From NCBI GenBank assembly GCA_937926215.1, contig CALEYA010000037.1:1-34725 (forward strand): a stretch of DNA of 34,725 nucleotides. The letters run 5' to 3'. Below, one piece after another: positions 2,587 through 34,725 of the stretch. The translations under genes were made by a program, and so were the position numbers. Source of the DNA: an uncultured Croceitalea sp. Its GTDB lineage: Bacteria; Bacteroidota; Bacteroidia; Flavobacteriales; Flavobacteriaceae. The notes beneath the pieces were generated by a model. That model was not told the DNA's origin. It made no database searches and was given only the letters and a program-made list of their open reading frames with translations. Within the stretch, counting starts at the first letter, position 1. Every line of letters starts with the position of its first letter.

Positions 2587-5586
<3,000 letters not shown>

Positions 5587-5595
5587 CCCTTTTTT

Positions 5596-7167
5596 ATGGA
5601 AAGCACCATCTCTACCATCGACATTGGCATTATCATCGCTTACTTTTTTATTGTTCTCTTTATTGGCTTATGGATTTCCCGAAAGACAAAAACTGGTGAA
5701 GACCTTTTTCTGGGCGGGCGTACTTTTGGTTGGGGCATCATAGGGCTTTCCCTCTTTGCATCCAATATTTCCGGAGCTACCATTGTAGGTTTGGCAGGTG
5801 CCGCCTATACCACGGGTATTGTCAATTCCGTATACGAATGGATGTCCGGTCTACCGTTGATCATTGCTGCGCTCATTTTTATACCCTTATATCTTCGCAG
5901 TCACATTACCACCATACCGGAGTTTCTAGAACTACGCTATGATAGGCGTTCGCAAAAATTCTTTTCCATAGTGACCATTTTTAGTACGATAATGATAGAA
6001 ACGGCGGGGGCACTTTACGCCGGAAGCTTGGTGCTACAAACTTTTTTCCCGGATTTGATCATGTGGCAAACCGCTTTGGTGTTGGCCGTGGTGGCCGGTA
6101 TTTATACCGCTGGGGGAGGCTTAAAAGCGGTGGTGTATACAGATGCCATACAGGCCGTTATTCTAATTGTGGGGTGTGGAATCATCAGTTGGATTCTCTT
6201 TGGTCGATTGGATTACGATTGGGGCAAGGTGGTTTCCAGTGCCCCGGAAGGGCATTTTTCCGTGGTACGACCCATTGACGACGAGGGGCTTCCATGGCCA
6301 GGCTTATTAATGGGTGTACCTATTCTTGGTTTTTGGTACTGGTCCACCAACCAATACATCTTTCAGCGTGTCCTTGGAGCACGAGATATTAAGCAAGCCA
6401 GATGGGGCCTTATGTTTGCCGGGTTCTTAAAAGTTATACCGCTTTTTATTATGGTTATCCCTGGGGCAATGGCGATAAGCTTATTCCCGGATATTGCCAA
6501 TGGCGACGCCGTATTCCCTACTTTGGTCACCAAGGTACTACCCGTAGGTTTGGTAGGGCTGGTCTTGGCCGGAATAATTTCCGCCATCATGTCCAGCGTG
6601 GATTCTGCCTTAAATTCCTCTTCTACCCTATTGGTCATCGACTTTATAAAACCAAAGAGAAAGAGCATTACGGAAAAAGAAGTCGTAAAATACGGACGTA
6701 TCTCCACTTTGGTTTTCATGCTGATAGCCGCACTATGGGCACCCCAGATTCAAAATTTTACAGGGCTTTGGGACTACCTACAGCAGATGTTTTCCATTAT
6801 TGTTCCGCCTGTTGCGGTGATTTTCTTGGTTGGTGTGTTTTACAAAAGGGGTAACGGACATGGTGCTTTCTGGACCTTGGTTTTAGGGACATTGGCAGGA
6901 ATCCTATTGTTCGTATTGGAACAATTTGACCTTTGGCATTTGCATTATACCATTAATGTTGGGCTTATGGTCTTGCTTTCAACGGTGATTTTTATTGTCG
7001 TCAGTTTGCTTACCCCAGCACCAGATGCAGAAAAGATACGGTCCCTCACCTATAAAAAGGAACTTATTATGGAAGGGTTTACCAATGTACCGTGGTACCT
7101 AAACTATATCAACCATATTATTATCCTAGTTTTATTGATTACCGGAATTCTCATTTGGTTGTGGTAG
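5596..7167 (+). CDS. Sodium:solute symporter, SLC5/SSS family (sugar type)
   Basis: The product has 523 residues and about 13-14 hydrophobic membrane segments, typical of the SSS family. The family segment DLFLGGRTFGWGIIGLSLFA follows the first helix. ITTIPEFLELRYDRRSQK and GGGLKAVVYTDAIQAVIL match conserved loops and helices of SGLT-like transporters. The helix IISAIMSSVDSALNSSSTLL carries the serine-rich part of the sodium site. It should import a solute, most likely a sugar or galactoside, with sodium across the inner membrane. The ATG is 9 bases after the beta-galactosidase stop, so the two are almost certainly co-transcribed. The exact substrate cannot be read from the sequence. Confidence 0.92.
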   Translation: MESTISTIDIGIIIAYFFIVLFIGLWISRKTKTGEDLFLGGRTFGWGIIGLSLFASNISGATIVGLAGAAYTTGIVNSVYEWMSGLPLIIAALIFIPLYLRSHITTIPEFLELRYDRRSQKFFSIVTIFSTIMIETAGALYAGSLVLQTFFPDLIMWQTALVLAVVAGIYTAGGGLKAVVYTDAIQAVILIVGCGIISWILFGRLDYDWGKVVSSAPEGHFSVVRPIDDEGLPWPGLLMGVPILGFWYWSTNQYIFQRVLGARDIKQARWGLMFAGFLKVIPLFIMVIPGAMAISLFPDIANGDAVFPTLVTKVLPVGLVGLVLAGIISAIMSSVDSALNSSSTLLVIDFIKPKRKSITEKEVVKYGRISTLVFMLIAALWAPQIQNFTGLWDYLQQMFSIIVPPVAVIFLVGVFYKRGNGHGAFWTLVLGTLAGILLFVLEQFDLWHLHYTINVGLMVLLSTVIFIVVSLLTPAPDAEKIRSLTYKKELIMEGFTNVPWYLNYINHIIILVLLITGILIWLW

Positions 7168-20641: not shown

Positions 20642-21097
20642 ATGAAAAAACCAGCTATTTTATTCGTTTTTATTATGCTATTTTCCGTAGCATCAGTATC
20701 CGCCCAATATAGAAACGGTGGACGTTTTGGTAGACAAGGAGGGTCTGGGATACCACAAGCGCAAACCCCGCCCAAAGAACCGGAAGCAAAAAATGCCGAC
20801 CAGTTAGTAGACGAACAAATGCCCAAAATAACAAAACAACTAGGTTTAGACCCTTTTGAAGAAGCCGTTACTAGATCGGTCTTGGTAAAATATGTACAAA
20901 AACGCTTGGAACTCCAAATTTTAAAGCTGGAACCCAAGAAGATGCAGGAGGAATTTGAAAAATTGGCCAAACTACAACGTGAGGAGTTAAAGGCAGGCCT
21001 TCCCGAAGAAAAATACGAAGCGTATCTAGAACTTGAAAAAAACCGTTTTCAAGCGAAAAGAAAAAAGAAAAAGAAAAAAAAGAAGTCCAAGGAATAA
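20642..21097 (+). CDS. Small exported helical protein with lysine-rich tail
   Basis: I take ATG 20642 (151 residues) over the GTG one codon earlier. A signal peptide MKKPAILFVFIMLFSVASVSA is followed by a Gly/Arg/Pro-rich stretch (YRNGGRFGRQGGSGIP) and an amphipathic helical region from about 65 to 135 with LGLDPFEEAVTRSVLVKYVQ and LEKNRFQAKRK. The layout loosely recalls Spy/CpxP-type periplasmic helical proteins, but I see no LTxxQ motif. The C-terminus is almost all lysine (KKKKKKKKSKE). The TonB-dependent receptor begins one base after its stop codon, so the two are surely co-translated and likely work together. The function is unknown. Confidence 0.8.
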   Translation: MKKPAILFVFIMLFSVASVSAQYRNGGRFGRQGGSGIPQAQTPPKEPEAKNADQLVDEQMPKITKQLGLDPFEEAVTRSVLVKYVQKRLELQILKLEPKKMQEEFEKLAKLQREELKAGLPEEKYEAYLELEKNRFQAKRKKKKKKKKSKE

Positions 21098-21098
21098 T

Positions 21099-23528
21099 AT
21101 GCAAAAACTGTTCTTAGTATTGGCATTGTGCATAGCATCAAACATCATAGCACAAAGGCCTCAAAAAAAGCCAATAACAATAACGGGGACAGTTCTGGAT
21201 AAAGATACAGGCCAACCTTTGGAATATGCTACCTTGGTGCTTCAAAATGTCAAGGACCCCAGTGTTATAAGTGGCGGTATCTCTAATGAAAAAGGGAAAT
21301 TCTCGGTGACTACGCCTCCTGGCATCTACAATATTTCCATAGAATACATCTCATACACCACCTACAAAAAAGATAATCAAGCACTGCGGACAACTACGGA
21401 TTTGGGCACCATAACTTTGGCCTTGGATGTTGCACAACTGGATGAAGTAGAGGTGATTGCAGAGCGAACTACCGTAGAACTTCGTCTGGACAAACGTATT
21501 TATAACGTTGGTAAGGATTTGACCGTTGCCGGTGGAACGGTAAGTGATGTGTTGGACAATGTGCCTTCCGTTTCGGTTGATGTAGAAGGCAATGTACAAT
21601 TGCGGGGAAATGATGACGTACGTATCCTAATCAATGGGAAACCCTCGGCCATTACGGGACTCAATAGTACCGAAGCATTGCGACAGCTTCCTGCAGAATC
21701 CATTGAAAAAGTCGAAGTTATTACATCCCCCTCCGCGCGCTATGATGCGGAAGGTTCCGGGGGCATCATCAATATTATCCTTAGAAGAAGTAAGTTGCAA
21801 GGATTGAACGGCGCACTTACCACTAATTTGGGCTATCCAGAAAGTGCCGGCATCAATGGTAACCTGAATTTTAGGACCGGGGCTTTCAATATTTTCACCA
21901 ATACCGGATACAATTATAGGACAAGGCCTGGAAATTCCCTAAATGCCACTTCCTTTTTTGATGCCGCCGGCATGTTTACAAACGACATTCGGGAAGAACG
22001 AGATTTTGATAGGGTCCGAAGGGGGTTGAACGCCAACCTTGGTGTAGAGTGGTACATTAACAAAACCGCATCGCTTACCCAATCTGTTTTCATTCGCGAT
22101 TCCGACAACACTAGCGAAACTACCAACAATTTTAGCCAGACGGATAGTAATGGCGCCACCAGTAGCGGTTTTCGGTTTGATCCGGAGCGGGAAACGGACC
22201 AAACATTTCAATACGCCCTTAATTTTGACAAGCAATTCAATGGGGACTCGGAACACAAATTAACGGCGGCCTTTCAATTTGAGACCAGCGATGAGGTAGA
22301 GGAATCCTTGATCATACAAAACGGTTTTGACAGTGAATCGGTACGAACGGCGGAGGATCAGGAGCGGATTTTCCTTCAAACGGATTATGTGGTCCCTTTT
22401 GGTAAAGACCAGCAATTGGAACTAGGGTATCGCGGCGATTTTAATAGGCTAGTAACGGATTTTGATGTTGATTTTATTAGCCCTACCGAGGAGGAATTAG
22501 GGATAAACAATCCCAGTAATGTTTTGGATTATAAGGAAACCATCAATGCCTTTTACACCCAATATGGGGATACCTTTGGTAAGTTTTCTTTGCTGGCCGG
22601 CTTGCGGTATGAAGCTACGCGCCTTATCATCAACCAGATTGAAAGTAGTGATTTCAATAGGAATAATTTTGATGGGCTCTTCCCTACCTTCAACCTCAAC
22701 TTTGAATTGGATGAAAGGGAAAGCTTTCAATTGGGGTATAATAGAAGGATTCGAAGGCCACGTTCCCGGTTTTTAAACCCTTTCCCCTCCCGTTCCAGCC
22801 CTACCAATCTGTTCCAAGGAAACCCTAATCTTACGCCTTCCTTTTCCAATCAGTTGGAATTGGGTTATTTAAAACGCTTTAAAAAGCTGACCGTTAATGG
22901 ATCCATTTATTACCAAAGGGCAACGGACGTCATTACTTTTATTACGGAAGATACGGGTGAGGACACTTTTTTTGACGGCGAGCAAGTTAGCATCTTAAGA
23001 AGAACACCTGCAAACTTGGCCAGTAACGACCGTTATGGCTTTGAGGTGACTACCAATTATAGAGGTTCCAAAAAATGGAACCTTAACGGGAACATCAACC
23101 TTTTTCAATTGGTCACCAGAGGTGACTTTAACGGCCAAAATTTTGATGCGGAAAACCTAAGCTGGTTTATTCGACTCAACAATAAAGTTACGTTGCCTTA
23201 TAAAATAGATTGGCAAACCCGATTGTTTTACAGAGGGCCAACGGAAACTGCCCAAACCAGGAACCAAGGGATATTCTCCTTAAGTTTTGCGTTTAGCAAG
23301 GACCTCTTTAATGATAAGGCGTCATTGGCCTTTAACGTAAGTGATGTCTTCAATAGCTTAAGAAGGGTCAGCGAGACCCAAACACCTTTCTTCGTATCCG
23401 ACAGCGAGTTTCAATTTAGGGTACGAAGTTTTAATCTATCCTTCACCTATCGTTTTAATCAAAAGAAAACCCGGTCTCGTGGTGGTAATCGTAATGAAGA
23501 TGGTGGTGGTGAAGAATTTGGAACGTAA
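21099..23528 (+). CDS. TonB-dependent receptor, outer-membrane beta-barrel family (OMP_b-brl_3 type)
   Basis: I choose ATG 21099, which begins a good signal peptide (MQKLFLVLALCIASNIIAQ). The upstream in-frame ATG at 21033 lies inside the preceding gene's lysine tail. The resulting 809-residue protein has a carboxypeptidase-regulatory-like domain (ITGTVLDKDTGQPLEYATLV) at about 25-110, a plug domain at about 120-230 (VSDVLDNVPSVSVDVEGNV, LRGNDDVRILINGKPSAI, SARYDAEGSGGIINI), then a barrel of about 580 residues rich in aromatic and beta-strand repeats. It probably moves a ligand across the outer membrane with TonB-ExbBD energy. The ligand is not predictable, and no SusD-like partner follows. 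Confidence 0.9.
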   Translation: MQKLFLVLALCIASNIIAQRPQKKPITITGTVLDKDTGQPLEYATLVLQNVKDPSVISGGISNEKGKFSVTTPPGIYNISIEYISYTTYKKDNQALRTTTDLGTITLALDVAQLDEVEVIAERTTVELRLDKRIYNVGKDLTVAGGTVSDVLDNVPSVSVDVEGNVQLRGNDDVRILINGKPSAITGLNSTEALRQLPAESIEKVEVITSPSARYDAEGSGGIINIILRRSKLQGLNGALTTNLGYPESAGINGNLNFRTGAFNIFTNTGYNYRTRPGNSLNATSFFDAAGMFTNDIREERDFDRVRRGLNANLGVEWYINKTASLTQSVFIRDSDNTSETTNNFSQTDSNGATSSGFRFDPERETDQTFQYALNFDKQFNGDSEHKLTAAFQFETSDEVEESLIIQNGFDSESVRTAEDQERIFLQTDYVVPFGKDQQLELGYRGDFNRLVTDFDVDFISPTEEELGINNPSNVLDYKETINAFYTQYGDTFGKFSLLAGLRYEATRLIINQIESSDFNRNNFDGLFPTFNLNFELDERESFQLGYNRRIRRPRSRFLNPFPSRSSPTNLFQGNPNLTPSFSNQLELGYLKRFKKLTVNGSIYYQRATDVITFITEDTGEDTFFDGEQVSILRRTPANLASNDRYGFEVTTNYRGSKKWNLNGNINLFQLVTRGDFNGQNFDAENLSWFIRLNNKVTLPYKIDWQTRLFYRGPTETAQTRNQGIFSLSFAFSKDLFNDKASLAFNVSDVFNSLRRVSETQTPFFVSDSEFQFRVRSFNLSFTYRFNQKKTRSRGGNRNEDGGGEEFGT

Positions 23529-29913: not shown

Positions 29914-31542
29914 ATGGATTTAAAATTCAATAAGAACGAAGACCATAATAAACTAAAGTTGTCCGATCTACGGAACCGCTTTGCAAAGGTTAAATTGGGA
30001 GGCGGAAAAAAACGTATTGAAAAACACCAAAACAAGGGAAAACTCACCGCTAGGGAACGTATTTCTTATTTATTGGACAAGGATACCAATTCCATTGAAA
30101 TTGGTGGTTTTGCAGGTGAGGGCATGTACGAAGAGCACGGTGGTTGCCCATCCGGTGGTGTGGTCATTAAAATAGGCTATGTAAAAGGAAAACAGTGTAT
30201 CGTAGTTGCCAATGATGCCACGGTTAAGGCCGGGGCTTGGTTTCCAATTACCGGTAAAAAGAACCTACGCGCCCAAGAAATTGCGATTGAGAACCGCTTA
30301 CCCATTATTTATCTGGTGGATAGTGCCGGGGTTTACCTGCCCATGCAGGATGAGATTTTTCCGGACAAGGAACATTTTGGTCGGATCTTTAGGAACAATG
30401 CCGTGATGAGCAGTATGGGAATCACCCAAATATCAGCGGTTATGGGTAGTTGCGTAGCAGGTGGTGCCTATCTTCCCATAATGAGCGATGAAGCCCTTAT
30501 CGTGGATAAAACAGGAAGTATTTTTCTGGCAGGGAGCTATTTAGTCAAAGCTGCCATTGGTGAAACCATAGATAACGAAACCCTTGGCGGGGCCACTACC
30601 CATTGCGAAATTAGCGGGGTTACCGACTACAAAGCCAAAGATGATAAAGCAGCTTTGGATACCATTAAAGGTATTATGGGCAAAATAGGCGATTTTGACA
30701 AGGCCGGTTTTAATAAAGGGATTTCAAAACCACCCGCAAAAAATCCGGAAGATATTTACGGGATTTTACCCGCCTCTCGTTCCGACCAATATGATATGTT
30801 GGAAATTATTGAACGATTGGTAGACGATTCGGAATTTGAACAATACAAGGAAGATTACGGCAAAACCTTGCTTACGGGTTATGCTAGAATTGACGGTTGG
30901 GCCGTTGGCATTGTGGCCAATCAACGTAAAGTGATCAAAAACGGAAAAGGGGAAATGCAATTTGGGGGTGTCATTTATTCCGATTCTGCCGATAAGGCCA
31001 CACGCTTTATCGCCAATTGCAACCAGAAAAAAATTCCTTTGGTTTTCTTACAGGATGTCACCGGTTTTATGGTGGGTAGTAAAAGTGAACATGGCGGTAT
31101 TATAAAAGATGGCGCAAAAATGGTCAATGCCGTTAGCAATTCCGTTGTGCCAAAATTTACCATAGTTATCGGGAATAGTTATGGTGCCGGAAATTATGCC
31201 ATGTGCGGAAAAGCCTATGACCCTAGGCTTATTGCTGCATGGCCAAGTGCGGAATTGGCCGTAATGAGCGGTAACTCCGCGGCAAAGGTATTGTTGCAAA
31301 TTGAAAAGGCATCCCTTCAAAAGAGCGGTGAGGAACTAACCCCAGAAAAGGAAAAACAACTTTTTGATACCATTAAAAATCGTTATGATAATCAGGTTTC
31401 TCCATACTATGCCGCTGCCCGCCTCTGGACGGATGCTATCATAAATCCGCTGGATACCCGTAAATGGATTTCCATGGGTATTGAAGCTGCAAACCATGCC
31501 CCCATTGAAAAGTCTTTTAATTTAGGGGTATTGCAGGTTTGA
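29914..31542 (+). CDS. Acyl-CoA carboxylase beta subunit, methylcrotonyl-CoA type
   Basis: The 542-residue carboxyltransferase transfers carboxyl from biotin to an acyl-CoA. The two crotonase-like halves are clear: KGKLTARERISYLLD, ANDATVKAGAWFPITGKKNL, VYLPMQDEIFPDKEHFGRIF and SVMGSCVAGGAYLPIMSDEA-like segments in the first half; QDVTGFMVGSKSEHGGI, GNSYGAGNYAMCGKAYDPR and AAWPSAELAVMSG in the second. The substrate loop is closer to methylcrotonyl-CoA carboxylase than to propionyl-CoA carboxylase, but acyl specificity is not certain. No biotin-carrier or biotin carboxylase gene is next to it in this window. A weak -7-like TATCTTTA at 29883-29890 may drive it. Confidence 0.9.
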   Translation: MDLKFNKNEDHNKLKLSDLRNRFAKVKLGGGKKRIEKHQNKGKLTARERISYLLDKDTNSIEIGGFAGEGMYEEHGGCPSGGVVIKIGYVKGKQCIVVANDATVKAGAWFPITGKKNLRAQEIAIENRLPIIYLVDSAGVYLPMQDEIFPDKEHFGRIFRNNAVMSSMGITQISAVMGSCVAGGAYLPIMSDEALIVDKTGSIFLAGSYLVKAAIGETIDNETLGGATTHCEISGVTDYKAKDDKAALDTIKGIMGKIGDFDKAGFNKGISKPPAKNPEDIYGILPASRSDQYDMLEIIERLVDDSEFEQYKEDYGKTLLTGYARIDGWAVGIVANQRKVIKNGKGEMQFGGVIYSDSADKATRFIANCNQKKIPLVFLQDVTGFMVGSKSEHGGIIKDGAKMVNAVSNSVVPKFTIVIGNSYGAGNYAMCGKAYDPRLIAAWPSAELAVMSGNSAAKVLLQIEKASLQKSGEELTPEKEKQLFDTIKNRYDNQVSPYYAAARLWTDAIINPLDTRKWISMGIEAANHAPIEKSFNLGVLQV

Positions 31543-31655: not shown

Positions 31656-33830
31656 CTATCGAATTTCAAAATCAAAAAAGAATTGTCTGTCACTTATCTC
31701 CGTCAGGCGCAGTTCGTATTCTTCATGCCTGCTGTTAGGTAAGCCATAATTATAGTCCAATCTGCATTTGATAAAAGTAGGTGCCGTATTTTCTGTACTG
31801 GTACGTTTCCCTTTATATGAAATATTTACGATCCACTTTCCCTCAATCCCTTCGCCCGCCAAAACAAACTGTTCGGAGGAGAAACCATTTCTCAACTCAT
31901 CCCCAATTCGTTCTTTGTTACCCAAATTTGTATGTTCCCATTCGAAAAAACGGTTCTGGGGATTCACGAACTGAATGTCAAATTCTGAATTCTGGTCGTT
32001 CCAATCAAAAACCAAGCGTGCATTGTAGGTAATACTTTTAAGGTAGGCATCCGGAACTTTTGATAGATCCAAATCCTTTTCATGCGTTCGGATCAACTCT
32101 TTTAGCTCAGTTCTGACCCTTTTATGTAAGCCATCAAATTTCAGATTCGTGTTGGAAGAACCATTTAATATGGACAAGAACATATCCATTGCTAATTGAT
32201 GCTTGTTCGAGTTGATATGGGCAAGAGCCATATCATAATACGATTGGGTTTTTTCGGGGTAGTCCTGCAGTAGTTTCGTAGCCACCAAACGTTGTAGTTT
32301 TTGGTCTTTGTGTTTACCGGCCTTCAAGAACAACCCCCGCAGTTGTGCATAGTTTGTTTTGTCCTGTTCCATAATGTTGGAAGCTATCCTCATCGCCGTT
32401 TTGGCGTTCCTGGGCCTAAAAAAATCGTAAATGTCCAAATAGTAGGACGCAATCTTATTATATGCATAACGCTGTTGCAAATAGATCGTATAAGCGTCCT
32501 CAAAATTTGAAGACGAGGCAAGTTCCTCAACATAGTTTATTCTTGTATTGTCCTTAACATTTAACTTTCCGTCAAAAATATTGTTCTTTACACGAGAGCC
32601 GTCATAAGTTTTACTTGTTCCCTGGCTCGCTACCGCTCCTTTTGTCGTAATCAAGATAACACCGTTTGACCCTAAACTTCCAAATCTGTTGGTTGCTGCC
32701 AAACCCTTGAGAACGGTGATATCAGCAATATTTTCTGGGTTTAGATAACTGGTGTCCACAACTTCTTGAGTAAACGAATTTGATTGGCGCAGCGGCACAC
32801 CATCAACCACTATTAGCCCATAATTGTTAGATAGAAGGCTGTTTCCACCGCCCCGTATCACAACCTGACTCAAATCATCGTTCTGTCCGAAGCGTACACC
32901 GGCGAATTTACCCTGTACTGCACTGGAAACCGTAGTGTTAATCGACGTAATATCATCATCACCAATAGATTGTGTTTCGTAACCCAATCGATCTTTGTCT
33001 ACTTTGCCTAGACCTGTATTTACTTGCCTCCTTGCGCGTTCTTCAACTAGCACGACTTCTTCCAAAGCATATGAATTGGACTCCAAGAAAATTTTTGTGT
33101 TTTCTTTAGAGGATACCCTAAACTTTTTATAGGTGTTGTTCGTAGCACTACTGACCAAAATACTGTCCCCGATTTGGGCATTAATTGCAAAATGACCGTC
33201 TGCGTCCGTAAATATTGCATCTTCCGTGCCTTTGACAGCTATCCTAACATTTTGCACCGGTTGATTGTCTATAAAAATGGTGCCCATTATTGTTTCGCTC
33301 TCGGATACAGCTGCGGTTTTAATCCGGTTTTTAGGTGACATGGAAGCAAAGTCCATGAGTCTGCTCTTTGTCAACAATGCCGTTCGGTTCAAAAATTCAA
33401 TATCCCTGTCTTCGCTGCTATTTACGATAAAATTCTTGGGCTTGAGCGGTAATGCTACCTCATTTAGAATGCCTTTCCCGTCGGTAAAGACAAACACATT
33501 TTCGTACTTTATTCTATCTTTAAGGTGGGTGTAGAAATTTCCACCATCGTATACAACATTGGATAAATCGTTTTTCAACTCCTGCCAATCGCCGTCCACA
33601 ATGGGATACATCTTTTCTGTAACCTCAACATCAAAAAGCAACAGTTGCACATCTTGGTTGGGATTTTTTTTAAAAATATGTTCTAATACCGATAGATCCT
33701 TTTCAAGATTCCTTTCTGACATTGATAGGGAACTATCCCAGCATAAAGTTGTTTGTCCCCATAGGGAGAAGCCGTATCCTAAAAACAAAAGTGATAGGAT
33801 AGCTGTAGTTTTTGCCCATTTTATATCCAT
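31656..33830 (-). CDS. Multidomain surface protein: vWA + carboxypeptidase-reg + TonB plug, no barrel
   Basis: The 724-residue protein starts with a signal peptide (MDIKWAKTTAILSLLFLGYG, cut near LWGQ). Domains in order: a von Willebrand A-like domain (~27-165) with MIDAS-type DSSLS at 32-36 and FTDGKG; a carboxypeptidase-regulatory-like domain (~180-250; GTIFIDNQPVQNVRIAVKG); a SusC-type TonB plug (~270-400; SQVVIRGGGNSLLSN, GLIVVDGVPLRQS, GSLGSNGVILITTKG); a helical region (~430-590; KTQSYYDMALAHINSNKHQL resembles a TPR); and a beta-sandwich tail (~600-724; LVFDWNDQNSEFDIQFVNPQ) like DUF2135/YfaP. No ~600-residue barrel follows the plug, so it is not a normal TonB-dependent receptor. A protein-interaction or signalling role in the envelope is my inference. 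Confidence 0.85.
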   Translation of the reverse strand: MDIKWAKTTAILSLLFLGYGFSLWGQTTLCWDSSLSMSERNLEKDLSVLEHIFKKNPNQDVQLLLFDVEVTEKMYPIVDGDWQELKNDLSNVVYDGGNFYTHLKDRIKYENVFVFTDGKGILNEVALPLKPKNFIVNSSEDRDIEFLNRTALLTKSRLMDFASMSPKNRIKTAAVSESETIMGTIFIDNQPVQNVRIAVKGTEDAIFTDADGHFAINAQIGDSILVSSATNNTYKKFRVSSKENTKIFLESNSYALEEVVLVEERARRQVNTGLGKVDKDRLGYETQSIGDDDITSINTTVSSAVQGKFAGVRFGQNDDLSQVVIRGGGNSLLSNNYGLIVVDGVPLRQSNSFTQEVVDTSYLNPENIADITVLKGLAATNRFGSLGSNGVILITTKGAVASQGTSKTYDGSRVKNNIFDGKLNVKDNTRINYVEELASSSNFEDAYTIYLQQRYAYNKIASYYLDIYDFFRPRNAKTAMRIASNIMEQDKTNYAQLRGLFLKAGKHKDQKLQRLVATKLLQDYPEKTQSYYDMALAHINSNKHQLAMDMFLSILNGSSNTNLKFDGLHKRVRTELKELIRTHEKDLDLSKVPDAYLKSITYNARLVFDWNDQNSEFDIQFVNPQNRFFEWEHTNLGNKERIGDELRNGFSSEQFVLAGEGIEGKWIVNISYKGKRTSTENTAPTFIKCRLDYNYGLPNSRHEEYELRLTEISDRQFFFDFEIR

Positions 33831-34061: not shown

Positions 34062-34725
34062 TCAGTTCTTTAGTTGCGGTTTTGGCCTGGGAATCAGAAG
34101 CAATTCCGTTTGCCTGCCATTTACGTATCGAAAACCATTTTCTCCATAAAATCCAGCTTCTTCCAACATTATCCTTATATCCCGTTTCCATTCCGGAATG
34201 GTAATGGTCGTATTCAATTCAATGGCATAGACCGTATTTGGATTTAGGGGATAGTTTTCCCCATCGTCCTTCATCACACCACCTTGGGAATCCCACATGC
34301 CTATTGTAGTTCCTGCAGAATGTCCATAACTCCCCAATGGATGGGTATAAATAGCGGGACGTAATCCCGCGGCCTTGGCATCAACTAGGGATTTTGCCAG
34401 AATCTCATTTCCCGTTCTCCCGCTTATCATATTTTGGGTTAAGAAATCTTGTACCCGATTCCCGTCCTTTAAACCATTGACCAAGAAATCCGGAGCGGCT
34501 TTTTCCTCTGGTCTTAAGACATAAGCCAATTCCTGACAATCGGTATTCAGTCTCAAATAAGTGATTCCAAAATCGCAATGCAACAGATCCCCGGGTAGAA
34601 TTACGGTATCTTCTGGCCTACCGGAAAAAGAATACAAATGACCCACTAATTTTTCACTGGTCCGTTGCACATCTACGGTAGGATGAAACCAAGTTTTAAG
34701 GCCTAAATCCGTTACTTTTTGTCGC
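34062..34725 (-). CDS. M24 family metallopeptidase, C-terminal part (runs off the window)
   Basis: The frame is open to the right edge. About 220 codons of the C-terminal 'pita-bread' domain are present and the N-terminus is outside. Visible metal ligands fit the family's D-D-H-E-E: the two Asp in LHCDFGITYLRLNTD, His in IYTHPLGSYGHSAG, Glu in YAIELNTTI and a final Glu in VNGRQTELLLIP. Upstream it begins with WFHPTVDVQRTSEK, typical of flavobacterial Xaa-Pro aminopeptidase-like proteins. It may instead be creatinase-like, as M24 members have varied substrates. No signal peptide can be judged. Confidence 0.85.
   Translation of the reverse strand, partial: RQKVTDLGLKTWFHPTVDVQRTSEKLVGHLYSFSGRPEDTVILPGDLLHCDFGITYLRLNTDCQELAYVLRPEEKAAPDFLVNGLKDGNRVQDFLTQNMISGRTGNEILAKSLVDAKAAGLRPAIYTHPLGSYGHSAGTTIGMWDSQGGVMKDDGENYPLNPNTVYAIELNTTITIPEWKRDIRIMLEEAGFYGENGFRYVNGRQTELLLIPRPKPQLKN

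Follow-up and report, generated by a model that had tools for sequence, protein, structure and literature searches.

The window, by which we mean the whole stretch of 34,725 nucleotides analysed here, carries towards its end a gene on the reverse strand whose product joins a vWA domain, an NTE, a Ton-box-like segment, a SusC-type plug, a TPR-like helical region and a beta-sandwich in a single chain (Table 1). Its two flanking genes recur around relatives of the window type (vWA-bearing forms of fewer than 800 residues): among 23 loci with such genes, a carboxyl transferase cluster is found in 17 (the window included) and an M24 peptidase cluster in 16 (the window's cut copy not counted), and further neighbour clusters are AMP-binding (15), ABC (12), CAAX protease (12) and enolase-like (9). 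The conserved neighbours that were scanned appear metabolic or housekeeping in nature, so that gene order is uninformative on TonB and was discarded as a source of functional clues. A search for a promoter of the gene's own by the -7 consensus TAnnTTTG gave two matches in L001, where 5.7 are expected by chance, and neither of them lies in the gap before the gene.

Table 1. The barrel-less plug gene, the parts of its product and its two neighbours (positions in the window)
Feature	Position	Strand	Remarks
Carboxyl transferase gene, convergent	29914..31542	(+)	Pfam
vWA-NTE-Ton box-plug-TPR-sandwich gene, 724 aa	31656..33830	(-)	ATG start, frame without internal stop
C-terminal beta-sandwich, residues 601-724	31659..32030	(-)	DUF2135-like by homology
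TPR-like helical region, residues 419-598	32037..32576	(-)	model; TPR matches in relatives
SusC-type plug, residues 280-400, barrel-less	32631..32993	(-)	PF07715 E 2.1e-11; fold
Ton-box-like LEEVVL, residues 256-261	33048..33065	(-)	linker with pLDDT <50
NTE / CarboxypepD_reg-like domain, residues 178-252	33075..33299	(-)	PF13715 E 6.9e-9; BT3090 NTE Z 13.3
vWA domain, residues 26-166	33333..33755	(-)	VWA_2 sub-threshold; fold match
Metal-site DxSxS, residues 32-36	33723..33737	(-)	D117 present, Thr position 98 = Asn
Signal peptide, residues 1-26, type I	33753..33830	(-)	by eye; no lipobox
M24 peptidase gene, upstream, cut by window edge	34062..34724	(-)	85% identical to L040 copy

The domain anatomy of the window protein is near certain. 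Among the Pfam families, Plug matches residues 284-391 (E 2.1e-11, 44.7 bits, cut-off 23.9), CarbopepD_reg_2 matches residues 182-260 (E 6.9e-9, 36.1 bits, cut-off 32.2), and VWA_2 matches residues 28-97 below its threshold (E 4.1e-4, 21.4 bits, cut-off 27). A phmmer search leads to SusC chains of the PDB, the best being 5fq6 (residues 239-412, E 2.7e-17). An AlphaFold2 model was built from A1, an alignment that holds the window protein together with others of its type from loci L038-L077, 27 in all, and represents a part of all relatives; with a mean pLDDT of 81.5 and a pTM of 0.63, the domain folds are trustworthy and the relative arrangement of the domains is not. Comparison of this model by VIA-align gave the NTE of BT3090 (Z 13.3, 79 residues, rmsd 2.9), vWA domains (Z about 12, about 140 residues), the SusC plug of BT1762-63 (Z 11.0, 105 residues, rmsd 2.9, 35% identity), and TPR-type chains (Z about 11). 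An earlier note, made from the letters of this DNA, had listed a signal peptide, a carboxypeptidase-regulatory-like domain, a helical region, a beta-sandwich end and the motifs DSSLS (32-36), FTDGKG (115-120), GLIVVDGVPL (338-347) and GSNGVILITTKG (387-398), all of which are present. The vWA-like domain that it proposed stands by its fold, even though the sequence match remains sub-threshold. Three points go beyond that first reading: a Ton-box-like motif links NTE and plug, the helices are TPR-like, and there is a presumably older scaffold that lacks the plug.

The tail had been called DUF2135-like, which holds by way of relatives but not for the window protein itself, where DUF2135 (PF09906) is not among the 10 Pfam families matching at E<=10. 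The family was found in 10 of the 27 close relatives (E<=0.05) and in the homologous end of one long relative (E 3.9e-10); the sandwich-homologous domains of L062 and L068 score 40.1 and 38.4 bits, respectively (cut-off 22). Modelled alone, the sandwich is predicted confidently (pLDDT 92.8) and has no clear fold relatives, with a best Foldseek E of 0.06 and a best VIA Z of 7.5 (2lge, 105 residues, rmsd 5.2), a likeness that may be due to chance. A PHROGs search returned no match, and Pfam finds no VIT in the window protein, where the vWA domain starts already at residue 26.

The absence of a beta-barrel is established together with these domains. No barrel family matches the window protein in Pfam at E<=10, none is seen in the secondary structure of the model, and the NCBIfam SusC/RagA profile is covered solely at positions 12-266 of 981 (125 bits, cut-off 368.25), leaving its barrel part without a match. 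A hidden barrel is thus excluded on three counts, and the SusC-type plug without a barrel that the earlier note described is confirmed, both NTE and plug scoring against their families.

The protein is probably periplasmic, which is the simplest reading. In the signal-peptide region of A1, 23 of the 27 proteins have A, G or S followed by Q within residues 13-32; a lipobox-like motif is absent from 26 of the 27, and in the remaining one it lies inside the hydrophobic stretch. Type IX sorting domains were likewise looked for, and none is among the NCBIfam matches listed for the window protein at E<=10. The surface location considered in the earlier note therefore finds no backing in either signal.

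As for the metal site of the vWA domain, the window protein has D32, S34, S36 and D117, and Asn at position 98, usually Thr or Ser, so that the complete DxSxS...T/S...D set is lacking. Position 98 is T or S in 21 of the 27 proteins of A1, and the full set is present in 20.

Matches to the window protein at E<=1e-40 are found in 67 of 299 same-family genomes (own included). The sole genus mate in the set (G176) gave no match at 1e-40, from which the protein appears dispensable in some lineages. A collection scan with the window protein alone gave no matches, and a second one, run with five aligned relatives, found 14 loci (11 strong and 3 weak), the strong ones in records of Flavobacteriaceae, Bacteroidetes or Maribacter. 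The check proposed in the earlier note, on the co-occurrence of vWA, plug and DUF2135 in other flavobacteria, comes out positive, and the architecture is no one-off. The same note's view of a poorly described architecture also agrees with our literature search, in which none of the open-licence papers covered was found to describe such an architecture.

Using domain profiles built from A1 on 40 neighbourhoods plus the window, we counted 34 proteins with the order vWA-NTE-plug-TPR-sandwich (long forms counted), 23 with NTE-plug-TPR-sandwich, 4 with NTE-vWA-NTE-plug-TPR-sandwich and 2 with vWA-plug-TPR-sandwich in which an NTE is not detectable, plus rarer forms; these counts are no frequencies, since the neighbourhoods were picked for holding a match. 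Besides the window type, we distinguish a short type without vWA (many of about 585 residues), a D type of about 1000 to 1283 residues, and a C type comprising the other long forms. VIT is found by Pfam in the C-type proteins of L062 and L068. The L062 protein unites four domains that pass the Pfam cut-offs in a single chain, namely VIT, NTE, plug and DUF2135, with VWA_2 below; in that of L068, the VWA and Plug families have no match at E<=0.1. Paralogs may stand in tandem, as with three window-type genes in L045 and four short-type genes in L074. YfbK-type plug proteins, which carry an NTE and a plug at their N-terminus together with vWF_A, VWA and YfbK_C, occur in 6 of the 23 loci with window-type genes; a YfbK_C search of the window's genome (92% complete) found none.

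Among the window-type proteins, the plug is the best-conserved domain, with a mean of 2.59 bits of information per A1 column, followed by the sandwich (2.45), vWA (2.19), TPR (2.04) and NTE (2.01). Each of the core plug residues R326, D343, G384, G390 and T396 is conserved in all 27 plugs or in all but one. In the helix that precedes the YG motif, position 382 carries a basic residue in 21/27 plugs of the window type, 21/27 of the short type and 9/9 of the D type, in 0/38 SusC rows (36 different genes, two being present twice: L147 = L004, L176 = L002), in 0/9 C-type (VIT type) and 0/7 YfbK-type plugs, and in 1/6 receptors other than SusC. At the level of sequence, a basic residue 382 is a subgroup signature and not proof of a new surface; the helix LKGLAAANLYGSLGRNG of the L004 SusC, from the window protein's own genome, is close to the window's LKGLAATNRFGSLGSNG. 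Being so well conserved in related bacteria, the plug is probably kept in this family for a function of its own. Its conservation points to a real function without choosing between the decoy and the adaptor in TonB-linked signalling that the earlier note had suggested.

The Ton-box-like motif is similarly prominent. Columns 256-261 of A1 average 3.22 bits, versus 1.60 and 1.88 in the flanks, L256 being L in 27/27 and V259 being V in 26/27 proteins, in a linker that is predicted to be disordered (pLDDT <50 in the AlphaFold2 model). The motif also persists where an NTE is not detectable, in two proteins from L064 and one from L103, whose plugs are preceded by ALDVVIL, SLGEVLI and QLNEVVV. With a permissive search pattern drawn up after the sequences were seen, an LDEVVV-like motif follows NTE-type domains in 78/80 cases in plug proteins and in 6/12 cases in proteins without a plug hit; as it also stands behind half of the plug-less NTE-type domains, the motif is suggestive of a Ton box and not specific for one. 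In the open frame of L105, a Ton-box-like motif is seen twice at about residues 270-350, at the NTE end and just before the plug. The Ton box of the SusC protein BT1763 is DEVVVTG, lies right behind the NTE and is flexible, and its deletion or change makes growth on levan as poor as does deletion of SusD (PMC7782687).

Regarding the rest of the chain, the window protein has homologous vWA, TPR and sandwich domains in the order of a scaffold family that exists also without the plug. A search of the phylum with the TPR stretch matched 30 of 395 genomes (own included). Loci were compared, by means of profiles built from A1, for 19 of the 29 non-self genomes: 14 hold vWA-TPR-sandwich proteins without a plug and 5 have the plug, counts to be read knowing that protein fronts may fall outside the stretch, as the vWA part of L105 does. 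The placement of the plug within a scaffold that is also found plug-less is thereby established.

Of the 70 sandwich stretches, 58 were used, and the plug set had eight duplicate receptors removed and one too-short plug hit dropped (99 to 98). Presence of the plug, mapped as a label on the scaffold tree, switches four times, at least three of the changes being forced by well-supported branches; the history of the plug thus includes several gains or losses, which are indistinguishable on this tree. The plug tree, which has few columns and weak deepest branches and from which four rows of uncertain class were dropped, unites 62 window-, short- and D-type plugs in one group (99/98) and places the C-type and YfbK-type plugs outside it, mixed among receptor plugs. 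As far as this tree tells, the window's plug group seems to trace to one uptake. In L066 (5701-13215), three neighbouring plugs, from a C-type protein with a long vWA form, a short-type and a YfbK-type protein, cluster together (100/95) across their different scaffolds, as if by local copying. Taken with the placements on the plug tree, this grouping suggests that uptake or exchange of the cassette was not a single event.

A candidate partner is a protein of 384 residues with two NTE-type domains, which adjoins plug genes in L038 (10365-11519), L039 (12702-13844) and L047 (4646-5815). Its frames overlap short-type genes in L038 and L047, and it is split in two in L042 and L075. The same protein matches the front, about 260-300 residues, of eight relatives of some 1000 residues (L051, L056, two in L060, L063, L065, L069 and L077; whole-sequence E<=4e-55), so that it is, by sequence, a separate neighbour in some loci and a fused part in other relatives. 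This fusion link is established in the relatives; the protein does not adjoin the window gene, and the window's genome gave matches to its NTE part only.

Three known systems are close enough to be compared. With SusC/RagA proteins (BT1763, BT2264, BT3090, RagA), the window protein has in common an NTE, a Ton-box-like segment and a plug in that order; unlike them, it is barrel-less, has a vWA domain ahead and TPR and sandwich behind, and its pre-YG helix has a changed signature. VIT-vWA-TPR-DUF2135 proteins have vWA, TPR and sandwich homologous to those of the window protein; the window protein is without VIT, and a plug is lacking in 14 of the 19 phylum loci. YfbK-type proteins likewise combine vWA and a barrel-less plug, but in the reverse domain order, with other vWA families and with plugs outside the window's group. 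In addition, PMC12204202 proposes vWA proteins and PorE, an NTE-bearing TPR lipoprotein, as parts of TonB/TolA-like force systems in Bacteroidetes. The vWA proteins described there have an inner-membrane tether and replace TonB, whereas the window protein bears a plug and would be a target of TonB; the likeness is one of domain types.

Our preferred reading, put forward tentatively and with slightly less than an even chance of being right, is that TonB engages the protein, a scaffold in the periplasm, by a handle that derives from SusC. The protein would be a Sec-exported, barrel-free and probably periplasmic descendant of an older (VIT-)vWA-TPR-sandwich scaffold, which would have acquired NTE, Ton box and plug, the part of a SusC that lies in the periplasm, between vWA and TPR, the window's type later being without VIT; this direction of change, for both cassette insertion and VIT loss, is the one we infer. 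The C-terminal domain of TonB would bind the Ton-box-like segment as in SusC, and the NTE-plug would be a handle for TonB to dock on or to pull the protein, while vWA, TPR and sandwich may hold partners, such as the tandem paralogs, the 384-residue protein and possibly outer-membrane complexes. Arguing for it are the Ton-box-like columns conserved in a low-pLDDT segment, at the place of the BT1763 Ton box, the retention of the motif in the three relatives with no detectable NTE, a plug that is the most conserved domain within a scaffold mostly plug-less in the phylum loci, the forced label changes on the scaffold tree, and the match of the 384-residue NTE protein to the front of the eight long relatives. 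Against it speak the LDEVVV-like motifs behind plug-less NTE-type domains, the missing metal-site Thr of the window protein's vWA, a gene order that says nothing on TonB, the genus mate without a match, and a 384-residue partner that does not adjoin the window gene and has NTE-level matches only in the window's genome.

It is also well possible, short of being probable, that the plug has lost its tie to TonB and now serves simply for protein-protein interaction or assembly. Together with vWA, TPR and NTE, it would then hold an envelope complex, perhaps a hetero-oligomer of paralogs and the 384-residue protein, which would suit the tandem paralogs, the fusion link, and a plug that keeps its core residues and has a changed pre-YG helix with its basic residue 382, as if a new partner were recognised. 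Such an assembly domain gives no evident reason why a Ton-box-like motif should be conserved within a disordered linker, and even less so in proteins whose NTE is undetectable.

A role in trans, in which the plug would close or sense an outer-membrane barrel formed by another protein, appears quite improbable. In its favour, the Arg of IRG (R326 here) and the basic residue of VLK/VLR (K375 here), which pair with barrel glutamates in FepA-type receptors, are each kept in 26 of the 27 window-type plugs; against it, no barrel was found among the conserved neighbours that were scanned. The helix signature unlike that of SusC counts against it weakly, and we draw no argument from position 382 against a fit inside a barrel, given the one non-SusC receptor that is basic there as well. 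A metal- or ligand-dependent receptor, in which the vWA domain binds a ligand through its metal site and the plug relays its state to TonB or a regulator, seems highly improbable; the metal-site set complete in most aligned proteins speaks for it, and the Asn in the window protein itself against it. Finally, even though plugs ordinarily come ahead of a barrel, a SusC gene in decay or cut short, or a functionless chance fusion, has negligible odds, as it is contradicted by the intact open frame, the full-length relatives in many genomes and the conservation of the plug.

Returning to the scaffold with a TonB handle, a bolder extension of it, which we hold to be rather unlikely, is that TonB also energises barrel-free periplasmic machines of Flavobacteriaceae, made of vWA-plug paralogs and an NTE partner, whose plugs would be pulled to remodel or stabilise the envelope. 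Plugs are usually seen as parts of transporters; here, one is kept in the absence of a barrel and shows stronger conservation than the domains around it, which suggests that NTE, Ton box and plug form a cassette that can be transferred as a module and is useful by itself. Should TonB engage this cassette, the Ton system would have non-transport targets in Bacteroidota, and, if it does not, the plug would be a binding domain. For annotation, it matters that vWA-plug proteins are easily miscounted as TonB-dependent receptors.

The window's genome has 33 Plug matches, some of which were scanned for a barrel. One protein (L137:402-2591, G000 contig 29) has 730 residues with NTE and plug and no barrel family at E<=0.001, a divergent barrel being possible. 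Another (L142:1974-4283, G000 contig 86) combines M56 and M23 peptidase matches with a barrel-less C-terminal half plug, for which Plug scores below its cut-off (E 4.2e-4). The window itself also encodes an ordinary full receptor of 831 residues with NTE, plug and OMP_b-brl_3 barrel (21033-23528, forward strand), and, at 2593-7167 on the forward strand, a family 2 glycoside hydrolase of the beta-galactosidase type followed by a sodium:solute symporter, which likely form a sugar-use pair.
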